From: Panopea generosa
Lineage: Eukaryota > Mollusca > Bivalvia > Adapedonta > Hiatellidae
Reading direction: 5' to 3'
NCBI GenBank assembly: GCA_029582155.1
Contig: CM055896.1
Location: forward strand, 5,127,598-5,191,597
Length of the DNA stretch: 64,000 nt
Part shown: positions 13,836 to 57,175 of the stretch, in pieces
How the letters are laid out: each line of letters starts with the position of its first letter
Numbering within the stretch: the stretch's first letter is position 1
Made by a program: the position numbers and the translations under genes
The notes under the pieces: generated by a model
The model's database searches: none
Seen by the model: the letters and a program-made list of their open reading frames with translations, nothing else
Told to the model about the DNA's origin: nothing

Positions 13836-16634
13836 ATGGCCAAGCTTCCAGTCCTTCAGCCAATGTCAAAGGCACAGCCTGATCTCATTAATATCCTACA
13901 TGACGAGGTTATCTCATTGTGCCAACAGAAATATTCTGCTGTGTCTGGTATCGAGATTGACGGCATTATTTGTATATCCATTTTAGACACAAAAGAACAG
14001 CAAGTTGTGAAAATACATAAAACTCTAAAATCTGTTTTTGCTGATACTATTGTGTCGACAACAAAGAAAAGAACAAATTATCCTAGAATAGCTGGTATCC
14101 TGTCTTCTCGAGGGCCAGCAGAGGTACCAGCACCTAAAGTACCGGTACAGATACCATCAAACAGTCACTGGTGTTTCACCACTTAACATAACACCAGCAG
14201 GATGAAACGCTTGATTTCAAAAATGATATTAACAAGTTAAGTGAACTGTTGAAAGCTTCTGATGAGGCCAACTATGTTAATCAAGTAGTAGGTGGCAGTA
14301 TCAATGATGATGAGCCAGTGGCGAAAAAGAGCAAAAGAAAAAGAAAGCAACCCAAACGAGCTGCGTCTGCTCAAGAAAAAAATTTGGCCCTCGTTGAAGC
14401 TGCAACTGACAGTCCAAATGAGGTATGGAATGGAAATGCAACCTTCGGTGATATACCCGAAGCTGTTGATAAAGTTTTCACAGTCAAGGAGGAACCCTGT
14501 GACCTTGAATACCAAACCGCTGCACAGACTCAGGCCAAAAATTGTAAGTGTTCAGAGTATATCACATATGGATGAGAAAAGTGATGTAGTTGATAAAGAA
14601 AGTAGGAAACCTAGTGAGTCTGTGTCTCATTTAATTGAAAAACTTATAGATAAGGAGATACAAAGTCGAACTGACCCCACTGGCTCACCTTTATATACTA
14701 ATGATGGAGGAGTTGAAAATGCAAGTGTTCAGAAAACTGGTGATCTGGATATGATGAAAGCTGATAATGTCAAAGTTAAACAAGAGAACACAGCTGTCGA
14801 TAGCGAGTATGGAGTTGAAGAAAATAATCAAAATTTGGAAGCAGATGGTGAAATTAAAATGAATAGAGAACACAATCAAAATATTGAAGGATCTATTGCT
14901 CAACAGAATTCGGAAGAATGTAATTACCAAGGCATAGAAAATCTGGTAAGTGATGCAAAAAATAAGAAAAATATTTTTGATATGGAAAAACATTTGATTT
15001 TGGGTAATGGTTCACTTGGTGAGGAAAACTCTGGTTCAGATAGTGGTCAGGGTTCAAACCCAAATGAAGCTATTAAAATGGCACTTTTGGAGAAGTATTA
15101 CGAGAAGGGATCAATTGCTCATGAAGGTTATCCACATGAAAGACCAAGACAAGTCCAGGATCCTCTTGGACGAAGCTGGATTGATATGGTGAAAGACAAT
15201 GTTAATAAATATCAAGCTGCACTTAATGAGAACTGTGACAAAAGTTAAAGGTGGCAGCTCGCCATCAAGTGTTCAAACTCGAACTGGTAGGTCTGGGACA
15301 ACTGCATCAACCAGAGGGCTACTTCAGAATGCTAATCATCTTAAATCTCTTCTGAAGGAAGCCCCTGGTACACTTAATTTGGGATCTGCATCTGGTACTG
15401 AAGATAGCGACCCATGGAGAGGCCCTGGACCTCGGGCAAGAAGTCTCCCAGGAAATGTGCATGGCTCAAGTTCAGACAGGTCTCAGTCAACATCACCAGC
15501 TCCAGTTGTTAAAATTGAAGTGGATGAAGACACAAGTCATGAAATGTATCTTAAAGATGGTGTAAGTGAGCCAACAGAACTGAAATCAAAAGACACACAA
15601 CAAAACCCTACAAAGCAAGGAGGGAGAAAACTGGAATCGCGATATCCAGCTTTATTTAATCAGTTGCAGCAGGCAAGGGGGGCAAGCGGGTCAAGCCAAC
15701 CAGACTCGCTGGTGGACAGACTGCCTTTTATCTCATTCCAGGAACTGTTTTCTCAGACAGCCACATCAACAGCCTGAAGGTGGCAGTGGAGTGACCGTTC
15801 CAAGAATGAGTGATTCTGTGACAATGCAGCTTCTAGCCAAAGCTAAAATGAATCCATATCCCTCAAAGGAGCCAGACCCTAATAAGAAACGATCAGTTTG
15901 GAAATGGAAAAAGCGACATGTTAAACCGAAGGATGACAGTGGACAAGTTCTTTCTCATTTACCTGCACCACCTAAAAGAGCAGCATACAGAATTGAAATC
16001 TTTGCTCAGTCCATCTCTTGGAATAAACATGTCAGCAAAGAAAACTTTTTCAAAGAAGCGTAGGAAGGGAGATGATGATGATGATGATTATGATGATGAA
16101 GACTACAAACCATATAGTGACAGTAGAGTGAGAAGGGGCATGGAAAACACTTATAGGGTGAAGGAGAAAACTAGAACAGGATCTGGAGAAAAACCGAGAA
16201 TGGATTTTACAGAAGTTGATCAAATTGATAGTGATATTGATGACATGTCTGAGATGGAACAAAGTGAGCCGCCTATGCAGCTTGTGTCCGCGTACTGTAA
16301 AAATAATTGTGGTCATAAATTTGTGAGTTTTGCCGAGCTACAAATCCATGAGGAAGAATGCATGTGTGTCGCAAGTAAATCTGGCAAAGATAAACCTGAG
16401 ATAAGTGTTGAAACTATTGCTGCTGCAAAAGGAAGATCTATTCCCAGAGAAGCAGAAACGAATTCAGAGGAGTTGGAAAGGAACCTGCCAGAAAGCAATG
16501 CATTATCCGCATCAGGAAATAACAATTTTAAGTGCAATTTATGTGGACTAGATTTCAATCAGCAGTACCGCTGGCACTATCACATGGTGAAAGTACACGG
16601 CGTGTCTGCAGACGACATGGGATTGTTCAGATGA
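13836..16634 (+). CDS. Zinc-finger nuclear protein, large 3' exon, reading frame interrupted by six +1 shifts
   Basis: An acceptor (TTATCTATTTCAG, ending 13833) is followed two bases later by ATG at 13836 (MAKLPVLQPMSK...). Coding character runs to TGA-free frame ends and finally to the stop at 16634, but the frame steps forward by one base near 14159-14162, 14200-14202, 14537-14541, 15240-15243, 15748-15751 and around 16001-16003. No other stop interrupts it. Removing six bases from 2,799 would leave 931 codons including the stop. Visible features: an N-terminal folded region of about 100 residues; basic KKSKRKRKQPKR (NLS-like, near 14330); Ser/Glu/Asn-rich middle with VKQE- and VKIEVDE-type motifs that look like SUMO sites; a DDDDDDYDDEDY acidic run (16070-16100); a C2HC-like finger (CKNNC-X12-H-X3-C, near 16296-16365); and a terminal C2H2 finger (CNLC-X12-H-X4-H, near 16530-16600). 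Family not recognised; a chromatin or transcription role is inferred from the fingers and NLS. It is either a real gene with insertion-type sequence errors or a young pseudogene. Confidence 0.7.
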
Positions 16635-17040: not shown

Positions 17041-17189
17041 ATTCCAGAACATTTGACATGATAGATGGAAACCACCATTTTACACATGAGCATTACTGTA
17101 AAAAAGTTCATGAAGAGATTCAGTTAAATGTTCTTCAGTAGGTCAATGCTGATTCCTAAAATACATATAGCTTTTATAATTAGTGCAAC

Positions 17190-17336
17190 TGTCACAGTGT
17201 GTACATAACCTACTAAGAGATGAATTTATGTAAGCAGGTTCGGTTAGCTGAGACGGTTAGAGCATTCGCTCTGTAAGCGAAGGGTTCCCGGGTTCGAGTC
17301 GCAGACTGGTTGCATATTTTTCTCATCCTGTTAACA
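17190..17336 (+). repeat. 5' LTR of the miniature element, with tRNA-like core
   Basis: The core at about 17238-17311 resembles a tRNA: A box TAGCTGAGACGG (17245-17256), D-stem pair GCTG/GAGC (imperfect), anticodon stem TTCGC/GCGAA around the loop TCTGTAA (a TGT, Thr-type, anticodon), and B box GGTTCGAGTC (17291-17300). Position 33 is C instead of the near-invariant T, and the T stem is mismatched, so a functional tRNA is unlikely. Confidence 0.78.
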
Positions 17337-17444
17337 TTGGCGCCCAACGAGGGACTCTGACTGATATATATTTCTAGAAACATTTCACATGATTCTCTGT
17401 TCTCTATGGAAATTCGGGATGAATTCCAAATTTGTGAGGGAATA

Positions 17445-17588
17445 TGTCACAGTGTGTACAGCAACCTACCAGAGAGGAATTAATGTAAGTGGTTCGGTTA
17501 GCTCAGATGGTAGAGCATTGGCCCTGTAAGCGAATGGATCCCGGGTTCAGGTCCCGGACTGGTTGCATATTTTTCTCATCGTGTAACA
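17445..17588 (+). repeat. 3' LTR of the miniature element, with tRNA-like core
   Basis: Same layout as the 5' LTR: A box TAGCTCAGATGG (17499-17510, closer to consensus than in the 5' copy), loop CCTGTAA, T stem CCGGG/CCCGG intact, B box GGTTCAGGTC (17544-17553). Each LTR keeps tRNA features the other has lost, as expected if an intact tRNA-like sequence was ancestral. Confidence 0.78.
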
Positions 17589-17670
17589 CAACTAATAATT
17601 GCTTTGTGTATCAAATATAGGACTAAACTCTATTGGCAGTTGACTGGCTTGATGGTGATTATACCAAATA

Positions 17671-31760: not shown

Positions 31761-33118
31761 TCTCAGATTCTTTTTCCACAATCTGAGGTCTTCCTCCACC
31801 AATTAATCTTTCATTATCTGAGGTCTTCCTCCACCAATTAAGCTTTCATTATCTGAGGTTTTCCTCGTCCAATTTAACTTTCATTATCCGAGGTCTTCCT
31901 TGTCCAATTAAACTTTCATTATCTGAGGTCTTCCTCGTCCAGTTAAACTTTCTTTATCCGAGTTCTTCCCTGTCCAATTAAACTTTCATTATCCGAGGTC
32001 TTCTTTGACTGATTAAGCTTTCATTATCCAAGGTCTTCCTACCTCGACCAATTAAGCTTTCATTATCCGAGGTCTTCCTCGACCAGTTAGGCTTTCATTA
32101 TCCGAGGTCTTCCTCGTCCAATTAAGCTTTCATTATCCGATGTCTTCCTTGTCTAATTAAGCCTTCATTATCCGAGGTCTTCCTCGACTAATTAAGCCTT
32201 CATTATCCGAGGTCTTCTTCGACTAATTAAGCTTTTATTATCTGAGGTCTTCCTTGTCTAATTAAGCCTTCATTATCCGAGGTCTTCCTTGTCTAATTAA
32301 GCCTTCATTATCCGAGGTCTTCCTCGACTAATTAAGCCTTCATTATCCGAGGTCTTCTTCGACTAATTAAGCTTTCATTATCCGAGGTCTTCCTCGACCA
32401 GTTAAGCTTTCATTATCCGAGGTCTTCCTCGTCCAATTAAGCTTTCATTATCCGATGTCTTCCTTGTCTAATTAAGCCTTCATTATCCGAGGTCTTCCTC
32501 GACTAATTAAGCCTTCATTATCCGAGGTCTTCTTCGACTAATTAAGCTTTTATTATCTGAGGTCTTCCTTGTCTAATTAAGCCTTCATTATCCGAGGTCT
32601 TCCTCGACTAATTAAGCCTTCATTATCCGAGGTCTTCTTCGACTAATTAAGCTTTCATTATCCGAGGTCTTCCTCGACCAGTTAAGCTTTCATTATCCGA
32701 GGTCTTCCTCGTCCAATTAAGCTTTCATTATCCGATGTCTTCCTTGTCTAATTAAGCTTTCATTATCCGAGGTCTTCCTCGACCAGTTAAACTTTCATTA
32801 TCAGATGTCTTCCTAGACCAATTAAACTTTCATTATCCGAGGTCTTCCTCGTCCAATTGAACTTTCATTATCCGAGGTCTTTCTCGTTAAATTAAACTTT
32901 CATTATATGAGGTCTTTCTCATCCAATTCAAAGTTTCGCTGAAACTTGATGGGAAAGATCAATGTGAAGTTAAGTTTGATGAGTTAAGGCCCTTTCCATT
33001 TTTTAAATTAAAACTTATGTCCGTGCTTAAAGGGAGTTTCAATGTTCATTCTCTGAGGATTTCCTCATCCAATTAAACTTTCATTTTCTGAGGTTTTCCT
33101 CGACCAATTAAACTTCAA
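31761..33118. repeat. 35-bp minisatellite, block A copy, with higher-order units
   Basis: Units of the type CCGAGGTCTTCCTCGACCAA + TTAAGCTTTCATTAT (35 bp) run to 32930, with outliers at 33045-33118 after a short insert. Within 32060-32770 the same succession of variants (accagTTAAG, gtccAATTAAG, CCGATGTCTTCC, gtctAATTAAGCC and so on) repeats with periods of 315 and 280 bp (nine and eight units), so higher-order units have been copied. HindIII-type AAGCTT recurs. A related array is at 56505-57175. Confidence 0.93.
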
Positions 33119-34310: not shown

Positions 34311-34350
34311 TATGTATATGGAATGATCAGTAGTTGCGCATGTCATTTTT

Positions 34351-34938
34351 GCGTTCCGGTTCGATGATTTTGACGACCGAGTTCCGGTTCAATGATTTTT
34401 GACCGAGTTTGAGACCTTTCTGAATTAAAGCTATTGTCCGTGTTTCTTCTCTTGAACCAACACTCGCATTTCAATGAAACTTGCTGGGAAGGATACGTGT
34501 GCAGTTTATGAATATCCCTTTTAGAGTTCTGTTCCGATAATTTCGGCTGAGAAACGGCCCTTTTATATGTTAAAATGAAGAATATTATCCTCGCTTCGTG
34601 TTGGATTTCGCTAAAACTTGCTGGGAAGGATCAATGTTCGTTTTGCGTTCCGGTTCGATGATTTTGACGACCGAGTTCCGGTTCAATGATTTTTGACCGA
34701 GTTTGAGACCTTTCTGAATTAAAGCTATTGTCCGTGTTTCTTCTCTTGAACCAACACTCGCATTTCAATGAAACTTGCTGGGAAGGATACGTGTGCAGTT
34801 TATGAATATCCCTTTTAGAGTTCTGTTCCGATAATTTCGGCTGAGAAACGGCCCTTTTATATGTTAAAATGAAGAATATTATCCTCGCTTCGTGTTGGAT
34901 TTCGCTAAAACTTGCTGGGAAGGATCAATGTTCGTTTT
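34351..34938. repeat. 294-bp tandem duplication, apparently identical copies
   Basis: 34351-34644 and 34645-34938 begin GCGTTCCGGTTCGATGATTT and read through GGCTGAGAAACGGCCC and CGCTTCGTGTTGGATTTCGC to CAATGTTCGTTTT. I found no difference on reading. A diverged third start follows at 34939 (GCGTCCCGGTTTGATG). One diverged copy is at 58126-58340. Internally the GAAACTTGCTGGGAAGGAT module occurs twice per unit. Confidence 0.9.
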
Positions 34939-36355
34939 GCGTCCCGGTTTGATGAGTTGAGGCCCTTTCCATTTTTGAAATTAAAACTAATGTTCGTGCT
35001 TAAGCCTTTTTCTCTTGAACTGACAATCGCAATTCAATGAAATTTGTTGGAAAATACCAGTACGAAATATAGTCGTGTATATATATCCCTTTTGCGCTCC
35101 GGTTCAATGCTTTTCGGCCGAGTTAAGGCACTTTTTAATCTTCGCATGGAGAATCTTACCAGCGCTTCTTCTTGAGCCGTCCTTTGGAATTGACTGAAAC
35201 TTGTTGAAAAGTCTATTTTGCATATATTTTTGTATTTTGGTTCTGTGATTTTTGCCATTTTACTTTTCTTAATACAAGGTTCGCACAGATATTTTCAACC
35301 TCTCAAATGAGAAGTGCTTATTTCTTTAAAAAAAAGCTCCTTGAATAGTGCTTATTTTTAATGTCAGTGGGAAAAGTGCTTGAAAATGAACAAAAATCAT
35401 TGAAAAGTGCTTGAAATTAAACGAGTTTGAATTTAGAAAACAGTAACGGAGAATATGAAATCGCCATTTATTTTACTCCGTGTTTTACTTTATGCAAGAG
35501 AATTTTGACAAATCTGTTTACCAGCAGTATTGTACATTGCAGCATGCTGGGAACCAGTGTGCACCTGTTCTAATTTTAAAAATAGATAGATGTGTTGTCA
35601 AAACAAACAATTGTAAAATTTAACGCAGTTGACAAGATTTTGCCCAACAAAAGGTTCCTTCTAGCCCATATACAATATTTTATATTTTAAGGAAATCTGA
35701 TTTTAGAACAATCATGTAACAGCTAGACAGGTCAAAATATATGAAAGGAAACATTTGCAAACCTGAACTTCAGCATTTGCAAATATTGTACAGATATATC
35801 TGTAGCTAAATAATCGCGTGACAAGCGACTATTTCATTACGTGATTATTTGGCGGGAGTCTATGCATATTCATTATTTTAATCTCTATTCTATATTATCA
35901 AATATTCAATGCAGGGGTTAATACTCTATACGAATAATTGTTCCTTGTCGGTCAGCTATTAAAAACTTGCATTTTTACAATAGATTGATTTTAAGGCGCA
36001 TGAATATACATTGGCATAGAGGCTATTTGTAATGAATATGCATGAGTCCAAGATGGCGGTAGACTGGTCCTCTGTGTACTACGAAATTTTGAATGGGTAC
36101 CATAATAGGAAATGGAACCAGATTAAGATGGCGGCGCCCTACTGTTCGGCATGCCTTTGACAGTTATCTTGTATTAATTACCTGGTCAGTCAAGTATAAC
36201 TTGTCAACCATAAGTGTTCCTTCTCTTGAGAAAGAACAATAAATAATTCTCCCATAAGCCGCGCAGAAAAAATGCCGATAATACCCTTTTGACAACCCCA
36301 AAATACAGAGAATAACATCAAATGCAATTTAGCAGCTGTTTTTGTTCTGAACTAG
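34939..36355. other. Non-coding stretch with repeat remnants and YY1-like motifs
   Basis: 34939-35250 is further degraded material of the tandem family. 35285-35440 carries several AAAAGTGCTTGAAAT-type phrases. Two CAAGATGGCGG/TAAGATGGCGGCGCC motifs lie at about 36050 and 36126, resembling YY1 sites. No coding exon follows that I can recognise. Confidence 0.4.
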
Positions 36356-51745: not shown

Positions 51746-52878
51746 AGGAGATAATAGCCACTGTCATACAAATGGCGGTTTTATGCAAAATAAAATAATG
51801 AAAATGCTATGTCGACGTCTATACTTACATCTGCAGTCTACTGTCTCTCTGTAACCTGACCATCATTTACATGTATAATGTTATTAGACATGTTATTAAA
51901 TCTACTAAAATGTGTTAATTTTTCATTAAATTTACATTAGTTTCTTTGCTAAGGATATGCATATCTTAACAATACTGCCTATAAAAAAAAATAAACTGTT
52001 CCAAAACCGATGACGGTGGCAAAGGGCTTTACTGATTCATGACTAACATAGCAGCAGTTGTAAAGAATGTTTGATCGAAGATTTAACCTTATAAATGAAT
52101 GTCTGTATTATATATGTCCAACTCCATATGGCAGATACCTTGTAGCCAAGACCGTTGTCTCAAGCTGACTGTTTGACGTTTTGGAACAAGCTTCCCAAGC
52201 AGTCTGTGACAGCACTATTATTAATTAAGTGATTTGATTGGTCCAAGGATTGTCACATTGACCTACATGGAAGACTTCGACAGGGGTTTAAAATGACTTG
52301 CCGAGGACTATTTATTGGATCAATATCAAATAAATTAATTAACAGTCTATCCCAGAACCTGATACCTCACTCAGATCTTTCAACCCTCAATAAAAAAGCA
52401 GGGAATTCTCTGTCCCACAATTCATAGAAATTGTACGCTTATTAACTGTGACGTCATTCAAACATTCACTGAAGCAAATGACCAACCAACGTGTTCAAAT
52501 GTGGCTTTCCCTATTTTGCATTTTAACGGACTCACACGGGAGAGCTGTGTTCGTTCTACAGACTAGGATCAATATCAAATAAGTTTATTTATTAATAATA
52601 TTGTTTATTTACAACCGGAAGAAGCTGTAATTGCCCAATATTCTGTTTCAAACCGGTCCTGTTTGTCCGTAGTGGATCTGTTCGGTACAAATCGGCTCGA
52701 ATCGCGTCATGTGATATGAGAATGTAACTCAATGACAAGGCTAATAAAAAAGAGCATTTTATTTATATACCTACAAACTATTGGCTTTGGGATATTTAAA
52801 GAATACAATGTCCAGAACTCAGTCATAGTAACAGATTTAAGTTAATCGTTTTACTTTATGTTCTGATTTGATTTTCAG
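51746..52878. other. Upstream region and probable 5' intron of the aerolysin-like gene
   Basis: Ends in a good acceptor (TTTGATTTTCAG, 52867-52878). No first exon or promoter could be fixed. A TATA-like ATTTATATAC at about 52762 is possible but lies inside the presumed intron. Confidence 0.35.
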
Positions 52879-53962
52879 AGAACAACAGACAAAATGGCCA
52901 GCAGTGAAAGAGTACATGAAGTAAACCTAGAGGAACTCGTTGAAAAGTACGTCTGGAAACGTTTCAAGGAAGACAAAGGGTTAGGAGGCATTTTCTACAG
53001 ACGGAGTAAATACTACATGGATATAAGGTGGGGATACGTAGATTTCAAACACAAAACAACGACGGTTGAGCGCCCAAAGAACCCTGAGACAAAAAAAGAT
53101 AATGTTGAATTGTATTCCACTGAATATGTAAACGAAACCACAACAGAGCAACAGTATACATTCAGTTCAAGCCGAGAAACAACTGCATCAACAAAAATTG
53201 AGTTACAAGAAAACTACACAATTGGTGCTGAAGCGAACCTGGAAGTCGATCTTGGCGGTGTGGTTACATTTGGTGGTGGAATAAACGGATCTTTATCCGT
53301 GACAGAGGCAAAAGGACAGGAGTATTCAGAGACACTTGTATGGAATATAGACACTGAAGTTAAAGTTCCTGCACGTAGCAAAGCAACGGCGTCGTTATAT
53401 GTTTTTGAGCAACCATCTATCTCTGATTTTACAGTTGAAACAAAAGTGACCCTTCCGTCAGGGAAACTTCCAGTTTCGATTCGAAGAATTCAAGACGACA
53501 AGATCACGCAAACGTATTGGATAACAAACTTATCAGCTATATTCGACGATGATTATCGCAAAAAGAGCAGTGTTAAATTTGAGGAAGTGGAAGAAACAAT
53601 CACAAAAGCGGATGGGCGAGAAAAAAAGATTATAGATACAGTGGTTGTTTTGACAACGCACGGTGTGTGTAGAAACCTATCTTGGAAAAATCAACATGTA
53701 AAGGTGCAGTGCGAAGAAATTGATGGGGCAACTGGGGATAAAGATGACGAAAAAGCTAAGTCTGTGATGGATGGGGCAGATGGTGGTGACGTGTAGATCA
53801 AGCTGGAACATGTAGCAACTATGAAGACCTAACGCTCAAACAAATCGTAATAGAGATTTTATATCTAAATATTATATGTACATATTAACTGCTAATTCAA
53901 TTTTAAGTGTTGTGTGTTTCACTTGAACAATAGTTTTCAAAAATAATTGGCATCGAAATAAA
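52879..53962 (+). CDS. Aerolysin/ETX-MTX2-like beta-pore-forming protein (CDS 52894-53796, 300 aa)
   Basis: The exon begins after the acceptor at 52878; ATG at 52894 has a strong context (ACAAAATGG) and is the first in the exon. The 300-residue CDS ends at TAG 53796; AATAAA signals follow at 53957-53962 and 54174-54179. Residues about 70-190 have the alternating Ser/Thr-rich beta pattern of the ETX/MTX2 (aerolysin-type) domain: TTTEQQYTFSSSRETTASTK, then an amphipathic Gly-rich stretch (residues 108-136, around DLGGVVTFGGGINGSLSV) like the membrane-insertion hairpin, then LVWNIDTEVKVPARSKATAS, typical of the strand after it. Residues 1-50 would be a small head region; 278-300 is an acidic, disordered tail. 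Only two Cys (259, 273). No signal peptide or transmembrane helix, so it may be cytosolic or released without the classical route. The family makes oligomeric pores; in animals such genes are linked to defence or digestion, often after suspected horizontal acquisition. The CDS is uninterrupted. Target and role are unknown. Confidence 0.85.
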
Positions 53963-56505: not shown

Positions 56506-57175
56506 TTTCCACAATCTCAGGTCTTCCTCCACCAATTAAACTTTTATTATCTGAGGTCTTCCTCCACCAATTAAACTGTCATTATCTGAGGTCTTCCTTT
56601 CTCGTCCAATAGAGCTTTCATTATATGAGGTCTCCTCCAGCAATTAAACTTTCATGATCTGAGGTCTTCCTCGTCCAAATAAATTTTCTTTATCTGAGGT
56701 CTTCCTCGACCAATTAAACTTTCATTATCCGAGGTCTTCTTGTCTCGTCCACTTAAGCTTTCATTATTTGAGGTCTTCCTCATCCAATTAAGACTTCATT
56801 ATCTGAAATCTTCCTCGTACAATTAAATTTTCATTATCTGAGGTCTGCCTAGTCCAATTAAACTTTCATTATCCGAGGTCTTCCTCGACTAATTAAGCTT
56901 TCATTATCCGAGGTCATTCTTCCTCGACCAATTAAGCTTTCATTATCCGAGGTCATTCTTCCTCGACCAATTAAGCTTGTGTTATCCAAGGTCTTCCTCA
57001 TCCAATTAAGCTTTCATTATCCGAGGTCTTCCTTGTCTAATTAGGCATTTATTATCCAAGGTCTTCCTTGACCAATTAAACTTTCATTATCCGAGGACTT
57101 CCTTGACAAATTAAACTTTCATTATCTGAGGTATTCCTCGTCCAATTAGGTTTTCATTATCCGAGGTCTTCAATT
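56506..57175. repeat. 35-bp minisatellite, block B copy
   Basis: About 18 units of the same family as 31761-33118 but more diverged, with several 4-8 bp insertions (for example TCTTCCTTTCTCGTCC) and without higher-order structure. Confidence 0.92.

Follow-up and report, generated by a model that had tools for sequence, protein, structure and literature searches.

The closest described relatives of the element reported here are the Helenus elements (TRIMp3), the name given by Kojima (2024; PMC10886601) to miniature LTR retrotransposons (TRIMs) with tRNA-derived sequence in their LTRs. According to that account, Helenus is known from fungi, from animals of six phyla and from a single plant species, five orders of pteriomorph bivalves contributing 51 families, and its total length is 311-1263 bp (PMC10886601). 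Target-site duplications (TSDs) of 4 bp are given for animals, tRNA-Lys is among the primers of bivalve families, seven bivalve families are able to encode tRNA-Thr, and a zebrafish family forms tandem arrays while fungal families leave solo LTRs (PMC10886601). Kojima (2024; PMC10886601) further describes the LTR's own tRNA unit as having no complementarity to the primer site, considers a Gypsy-type helper the likely source of proteins, and calls the transcription of Helenus by RNA polymerase III (Pol III) unproven. Like the element described below, Cassandra is a TRIM whose LTRs contain a Pol III gene unit, promoter and terminator included, and it is found in tandem arrays (PMC7215508); unlike it, Cassandra is an element of plants, carries a 5S rRNA unit in place of a tRNA, and measures 565-860 bp in total (PMC10886601). 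Ajax of nemerteans is a TRIM of animals too, and its LTRs also contain a small-RNA promoter, but its unit is 5S-derived, its primer is tRNA-Leu and its TSD is 5 bp long (PMC10886601). Finally, biv-TRIM is, as here, a bivalve TRIM with tandem arrays, and it also has solo repeats (PMC6934838). Its repeats of 202-218 bp, internal domain of 77-80 bp, purine tract that is mostly GGGGAGA and lack of an unambiguous primer-binding site set it apart, and the part of its published results considered here makes no mention of a tRNA-like LTR (PMC6934838). Membership in biv-TRIM was accordingly rejected for the present element, whose LTRs are mostly 142-147 bp, whose internal domain is 108 bp and whose tract is GAGGGAA.

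The element lies in a stretch of 64,000 nucleotides from the bivalve Panopea generosa, hereafter the window. Positions 17190-17588 (399 bp) hold a complete TRIM, and inspection of the letters located every part that an earlier, sequence-only reading had claimed for it, namely repeats of 147 and 144 bp with TG...CA ends, a primer site, a purine-rich end and a CAAC duplication. From 17186 to 17592 the order is CAAC, the 147-bp LTR, a single T (17337) that separates this LTR from the 18-base primer site, the remainder of the internal domain ending in TGTGAGGGAATA, the 144-bp LTR, and CAAC once more (Table 1). The two LTRs begin and end TGTCAC...TTAACA and TGTCAC...GTAACA, and they agree at 127 of 143 aligned bases, with five gap positions. 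The purine run GAGGGAA is short and sits two bases (TA) upstream of the 3' LTR, not flush with it. The LTR identity of 0.888 puts the window copy with the most diverged members of the sample described below, and it is therefore an insertion that is old and has decayed. The parallel with Cassandra that the sequence-only reading drew is a sound one, since a Pol III gene unit likewise sits in Cassandra LTRs.

Table 1. Parts of the TRIM and their positions in the window.
Feature	Position	Strand	Basis
Target-site duplication, left copy (CAAC)	17186..17189	.	Sequence, copy comparison
5' LTR, 147 bp, TG...CA	17190..17336	+	Sequence, copy comparison
tRNA-Thr(TGT)-like unit in 5' LTR, proposed Pol III promoter	17238..17313	+	ARAGORN
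A box of 5' LTR unit	~17244-17256	+	Placed by eye
B box of 5' LTR unit	~17291-17301	+	Placed by eye
T5 run 3' of tRNA-like unit in 5' LTR, candidate (leaky) Pol III terminator	17317..17321	+	Letters; run of 4-5 in 68/76 LTRs
Internal domain, 108 bp, not long enough to encode mobility proteins	17337..17444	+	
Primer-binding site, 18/18 complementary to host tRNA-Lys(UUU) 3' end plus CCA	17338..17355	+	
Purine tract GAGGGAA before 3' LTR	17436..17442	+	Letters
3' LTR, 144 bp, TG...CA	17445..17588	+	Sequence, copy comparison
tRNA-Thr(TGT)-like unit in 3' LTR	17492..17566	+	ARAGORN; Rfam tRNA, 36.2 bits
A box of 3' LTR unit	~17498-17510	+	Placed by eye
B box of 3' LTR unit	~17544-17554	+	Placed by eye
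T5 run in 3' LTR, candidate transcript end point	17570..17574	+	Letters
Target-site duplication, right copy (CAAC)	17589..17592	.	Sequence, copy comparison

The whole element was used as a query against the 1.47-Gb assembly of its own genome, where the best 40 of 1915 first-look candidates were scored. At least 47 matches were obtained, 46 of which cover at least 388 of the 399 query bases, and those other than the window copy have 87-91% identity. Forty loci picked by this query were fetched (L001-L040); as the flanks of L010 recur at L011, L016, L022 and L024, and those of L029 at L032, they amount to 35 independent loci. In this set of 40, selected with the whole element as query, every locus has an LTR-internal-LTR unit with identical junctions, and at two of them (L013 and L037) the outer LTR is truncated. 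Exact 4-bp duplications flank the unit at 22 of the 40 loci, or 21 of the 35 independent ones, compared with 20 of 1560 and 18 of 1190 mismatched left-right flank pairs, respectively, in the control. Where present (22/40 loci, chosen by the whole element), the duplications abut the LTR ends of the whole unit with no tail between. The absence of an exact 4-bp duplication from 14 of the 35 independent loci is counted against our best explanation: L026 has a 5-bp duplication, truncation or a position at the end of an array accounts for L013, L014, L037 and L039, and nine are without visible reason. The fetched loci conserve the TG...CA ends and the internal domain of 108 bp, single elements measure ~394-399 bp, and the LTRs outside the window are mostly 142-143 bp as compared with 144-147 bp within it. 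The identity of LTR pairs within loci spans 0.887-0.993, so that the insertions range from young to old. Queried alone, the internal domain returned at least 40 matches (the best 40 of 958 candidates), all full length and of 94-100% identity. Six further loci were reached in this way (L081-L086), and at all six the domain lies between TRIM LTR pieces; by eye L085 has a matching 4-bp duplication, L084 has complete outer ends and no duplication, L083 continues into another primer site, and the aligned LTRs of L081, L082 and L086 are incomplete. The 399-base element is a real, many-copy mobile family, far beyond chance. Indeed, the check that the sequence-only reading had proposed, a search for many copies with differing 4-bp duplications and the same primer site, came out in its favor (21/35 independent loci against 18/1190 in the control).

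Arrays of three or four LTRs with internal domains between them occur at five of the 35 loci (L005, L013, L018, L026, L038), and at L014 and L039 the flank continues into another internal domain. An inverted TRIM unit was seen beside direct ones at L013 (1373-1567), and inverted units or pieces adjoin direct ones at the primer sites C12:29783056/29783274; together with a piece at L092 (below), these suggest rearrangement or self-integration. Near-identical 100-base flanks were observed at several places around the copies L010, L011, L016, L022 and L024 (C12, C13), as well as around L029 and L032; at such repeated-flank loci the TRIM apparently forms part of a larger sequence that is duplicated or mobile.

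An autonomous partner, for Helenus a Gypsy element with the PBS region in common, was sought through the exact primer site, of which the genome holds 69; 50 of these were covered, 42 by reading and eight by their position inside internal-domain matches. Outside the loci and matches already known there are 36 exact sites, 20 of which were read, and 19 of those 20 were recognized by eye as TRIM copies. The 50 of 69 sites yielded no autonomous partner, 49 being TRIM copies and one (L092) a rearranged TRIM piece. L092 was considered as a partner, having an LTR end and primer site joined to another body, and was rejected: by BLAST its upstream part is an inverted piece of TRIM internal domain (49 bp at 84% to that of L003). 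The locus would most simply be a rearranged TRIM copy; the sequence just past its primer site has no match to the TRIM.

ARAGORN reports a tRNA-Thr(TGT) in both window LTRs. The Rfam tRNA model places the 3' unit at 36.2 bits, above the gathering threshold of 29, and the 5' unit under it; at that threshold Rfam finds only this one tRNA in the whole window, and no Cassandra-type 5S rRNA unit. The boxes of Table 1 were placed using motifs that we take to be those of the A and B boxes. The sequence-only reading had proposed tRNA-like LTRs with both boxes and a TGT anticodon, and had suggested running a tRNA predictor on both LTR cores; ARAGORN agrees for both, and Rfam for the 3' unit only. That reading had also described each LTR as largely tRNA-shaped, which is right in that each has a tRNA unit and overstated in that the unit fills only about half of the LTR (76 of 147 bp). 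At every one of the 35 independent loci ARAGORN names a tRNA in one LTR or more, usually Thr(TGT) and in some Ile, Tyr or Thr(GGT). Annotators should be warned that tRNA-Thr(TGT) calls in such genomes may be retrotransposon LTRs.

In the 76 LTRs of these 35 loci, pairing is held in the anticodon stem (69-76/76) and the T-stem (61-74/76). The acceptor stem includes three G-U pairs and has its second position unpaired in 75 LTRs, and 75 have C instead of U at position 33 of the anticodon loop. With C33 and the acceptor mismatch nearly family-wide, a working tRNA-Thr gene was judged unlikely. The majority sequence of the family keeps the two promoter boxes intact, which makes it plausible that the unit acts as a Pol III promoter. 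Deviation from the majority sequence amounts to 3.2% in the A box, 3.9% in the B box, 3.3% in the U3-like part and 3.4% in the tRNA unit; the T-run segment, at 5.6%, and the tail of the LTR, at 8.1%, vary more than its other parts. Copy divergence among the 76 LTRs gave no signal of extra constraint on the promoter boxes or the T-run; as the boxes diverge no less and the T-run more, selection on promoter or terminator after insertion is not demonstrated.

The longest stretch of the T-run is five in 39 of the 76 LTRs, four in 29, three in six and six in two, and first and last LTRs are alike in this respect. As the run is found in both LTRs, a transcript begun in the 5' LTR should often stop before the primer site; this counts against our best explanation, as do, for the T-run as terminator, the six LTRs with only T3. 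For yeast Pol III, T4 alone is reported as essentially non-functional in vitro, five as the minimum and six as relatively efficient, and nearby RNA structure aids termination (PMC9278858). Given weak termination at T4-T5 in yeast and the weak acceptor stem here, the T-run could be leaky, with some RNA passing the 5' LTR. Cassandra RNA is reported with R at both ends, ending in the 3' LTR (PMC10886601, introduction), and Cassandra transcripts are presumed to read through intervening LTRs (Kalendar 2020; PMC7215508). The repetition of the run in the 5' LTR makes full-length RNA from a Pol III-driven LTR element a testable question.

The primer site was compared with the host by a genome search for a T-arm and acceptor end complementary to it, the reversed pattern serving as control. 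Such an end occurs at 31 places (control 0), and all 20 of the 31 that were fetched (L061-L080) are intron-bearing tRNA-Lys(TTT) genes; ARAGORN names Lys(TTT) at four and, because of the intron, returns '???' at 16, where TTT was read from the letters. These genes (on C1, C2, C5, C8 and C11) have an intron of ~20 bases, and many are clustered. The window's site is complementary to the 3' end of host tRNA-Lys(UUU) plus the added CCA at 18 of 18 positions; the sequence-only reading, which had it closely resembling the tRNA-Lys type, was right about Lys and too weak about the match. The 35 loci contain 41 internal domains, of which 18 show the window version without change and five, likewise unchanged, a second version, TGGCGCCCAACGTGGGGC, for which the corresponding tRNA end occurs at 41 places (control 0); both of the two fetched from these 41 are tRNA-Lys(CTT) by ARAGORN. 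The two discriminating letters are AA in 28 domains, TG in nine, TA in three and GA in one. G at position 17 of the site always accompanies T at position 13 (9/9; Fisher p = 6e-7), in keeping with the difference between the host tRNAs. When 35 copies (seven CTT-type, 25 TTT-type and three without type) were placed on a tree with the primer site left out, the seven CTT-type copies took seven changes, against a shuffled mean of 6.4 with 500/500 shuffles as low, so the label is not clustered. The tree is weak, with one of its 32 inner branches starred.

Taken by its structure, the window element is a Helenus-type element, a published kind, and it is assigned to that kind by five features. It is a TRIM of under 1000 bp without coding capacity and with two LTRs (~394-399 bp, internal domain 108 bp), its length falling within the Helenus range; each LTR bears tRNA-derived sequence with A and B boxes (by ARAGORN, with Rfam for the window's 3' unit only); a primer-binding site at the start of the internal domain is complementary to a tRNA 3' end (18/18 to tRNA-Lys(TTT) plus CCA, the second version to tRNA-Lys(CTT)); a purine tract precedes the 3' LTR (GAGGGAA, in 34 of 41 internal domains); and target duplications are of 4 bp (21/35 independent loci, control 18/1190). 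The tRNA-Lys primer, the tRNA-Thr call and the tandem arrays (in Helenus, those of the zebrafish family) are also held in common. Accordingly, the suggestion of the sequence-only reading that a tRNA-bearing animal TRIM would be a distinct class does not stand, as tRNA-bearing TRIMs were published as Helenus in 2024 (PMC10886601). A literature search of titles and abstract openings retrieved no second account of tRNA-bearing TRIMs besides Kojima (2024), which is itself cited in a 2026 meeting report (PMC12859917). Two points differ from that account: in the parts of PMC10886601 considered here, a T-run terminator in the 5' LTR is not discussed (the word 'terminator' appears once, about Cassandra), and neither are primer-site versions for two tRNA-Lys isoacceptors in one family. 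To that account the present analysis adds an exact match to the host tRNA, primer-site versions for two isoacceptors that are scattered over the copies, and the question of a leaky terminator. With its many copies, its exact duplications and a primer site that matches host tRNA genes letter for letter, the element allows the Helenus model to be tested independently within one animal genome.

Our best explanation, to which we give a probability of roughly 0.93, is that the element is a Helenus-type TRIM (TRIMp3), non-coding and ~394 bp long, that moves in trans by a route whose Pol III start, read-through, helper class and array formation we infer. Pol III would start at the tRNA-like unit of the 5' LTR, ~45 bases in, with U3 being the first ~45 bp, would pass the weak T-run (mostly T4-T5) of that LTR and would stop at the corresponding run of the 3' LTR, so that each end of the RNA would carry R, from the tRNA unit to the T-run. 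Pairing of host tRNA-Lys with the primer site would then prime reverse transcription, and proteins from an autonomous, probably Gypsy-type, element would make an LTR-to-LTR cDNA, with GAGGGAA used for the plus strand. This cDNA would integrate with a 4-bp duplication, and exchange between LTRs afterwards would yield the arrays.

Two other readings of the element as a whole bear on this explanation. The pair of LTRs might be nothing but two nearby SINE or tRNA-pseudogene copies, with a primer-site match by chance. tRNA-headed SINEs are common in animals, and each unit does score as a tRNA gene in ARAGORN; yet the same LTR-internal-LTR junctions recur at 40 of 40 loci (chosen by the whole element), the at least 40 internal-domain matches are full length and the six newly read all lie between TRIM LTR pieces, the duplications flank the whole unit and abut its LTR ends with no tail, and the primer-site versions match two host tRNA-Lys ends exactly, all of which leaves this reading very improbable. 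Units of 145 bp moving singly were not seen at the loci, which had been chosen by the whole element or its internal domain. A TRIM transcribed by Pol II, its tRNA-like unit being a fossil SINE insertion with no present role, is a more serious competitor that we nonetheless regard as unlikely. It would account for the family-wide tRNA defects (C33 and the unpaired second acceptor position, each in 75/76 LTRs), for boxes and a T-run that are not conserved in excess among copies, and for a T-run placed between promoter and primer site. Against it stand the two promoter boxes, intact in the majority sequence of the family; the repeated appearance of the design, boxes kept, among fungi, wasps, fish and bivalves (PMC10886601, section 3.5 and Figure 2 legend); and the reported transcription of Cassandra from the 5S unit that it carries (PMC10886601, introduction).

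Within the Helenus-type explanation, the two primer-site versions may be read in either of two ways. Reverse transcription of LTR elements allows the primer site to be rewritten by the priming tRNA. The scattered versions fit such rewriting by whichever tRNA-Lys primes, though the weak tree does not force this. In its fuller form, the primer site would be a stamp set at each event by the priming tRNA-Lys (UUU or CUU), and the weak T4-T5 terminator in both LTRs would set R and meter read-through; we advance this only tentatively, and rate the joint reading slightly lower since the T-run varies more than the LTR does elsewhere. The two versions could instead be inherited from two source lineages and not be fresh copies of the priming tRNA, which is a real possibility falling somewhat short of an even chance. 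Three intermediate (TA) sites among the 41 speak for two lineages, as does the weakness of the tree (1/32 inner branches starred), with which a single CTT-type origin is compatible; the unclustered CTT label (seven changes, shuffled mean 6.4, 500/500 shuffles as low) and the tie of G at position 17 to T at position 13 (9/9; Fisher p = 6e-7), matching the host tRNA difference, speak against. If the stamp reading is true, copies would record primer choice one transposition event at a time. The two versions offer a handle on the primer choice of LTR elements without experiment.

The remainder of the window holds several features of its own. An open frame at 15852-16634, with two C2H2-like zinc-finger motifs by eye, ends ~550 bases upstream of the TRIM, and another of 309 aa lies at 52867-53796; five nearby ORFs, including these two, gave no Pfam family at E up to 0.001. 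A 294-bp unit is repeated 2.1 times with 99% match at 34347-34955 and is probably a recent duplication. Finally, 35-bp units that are nearly identical (ATCCGAGGTCTTCCTCGACCAATTAAGCTTTCATT and a close variant) make up two separate arrays ~24 kb apart, at 31781-32928 and 56514-57171.
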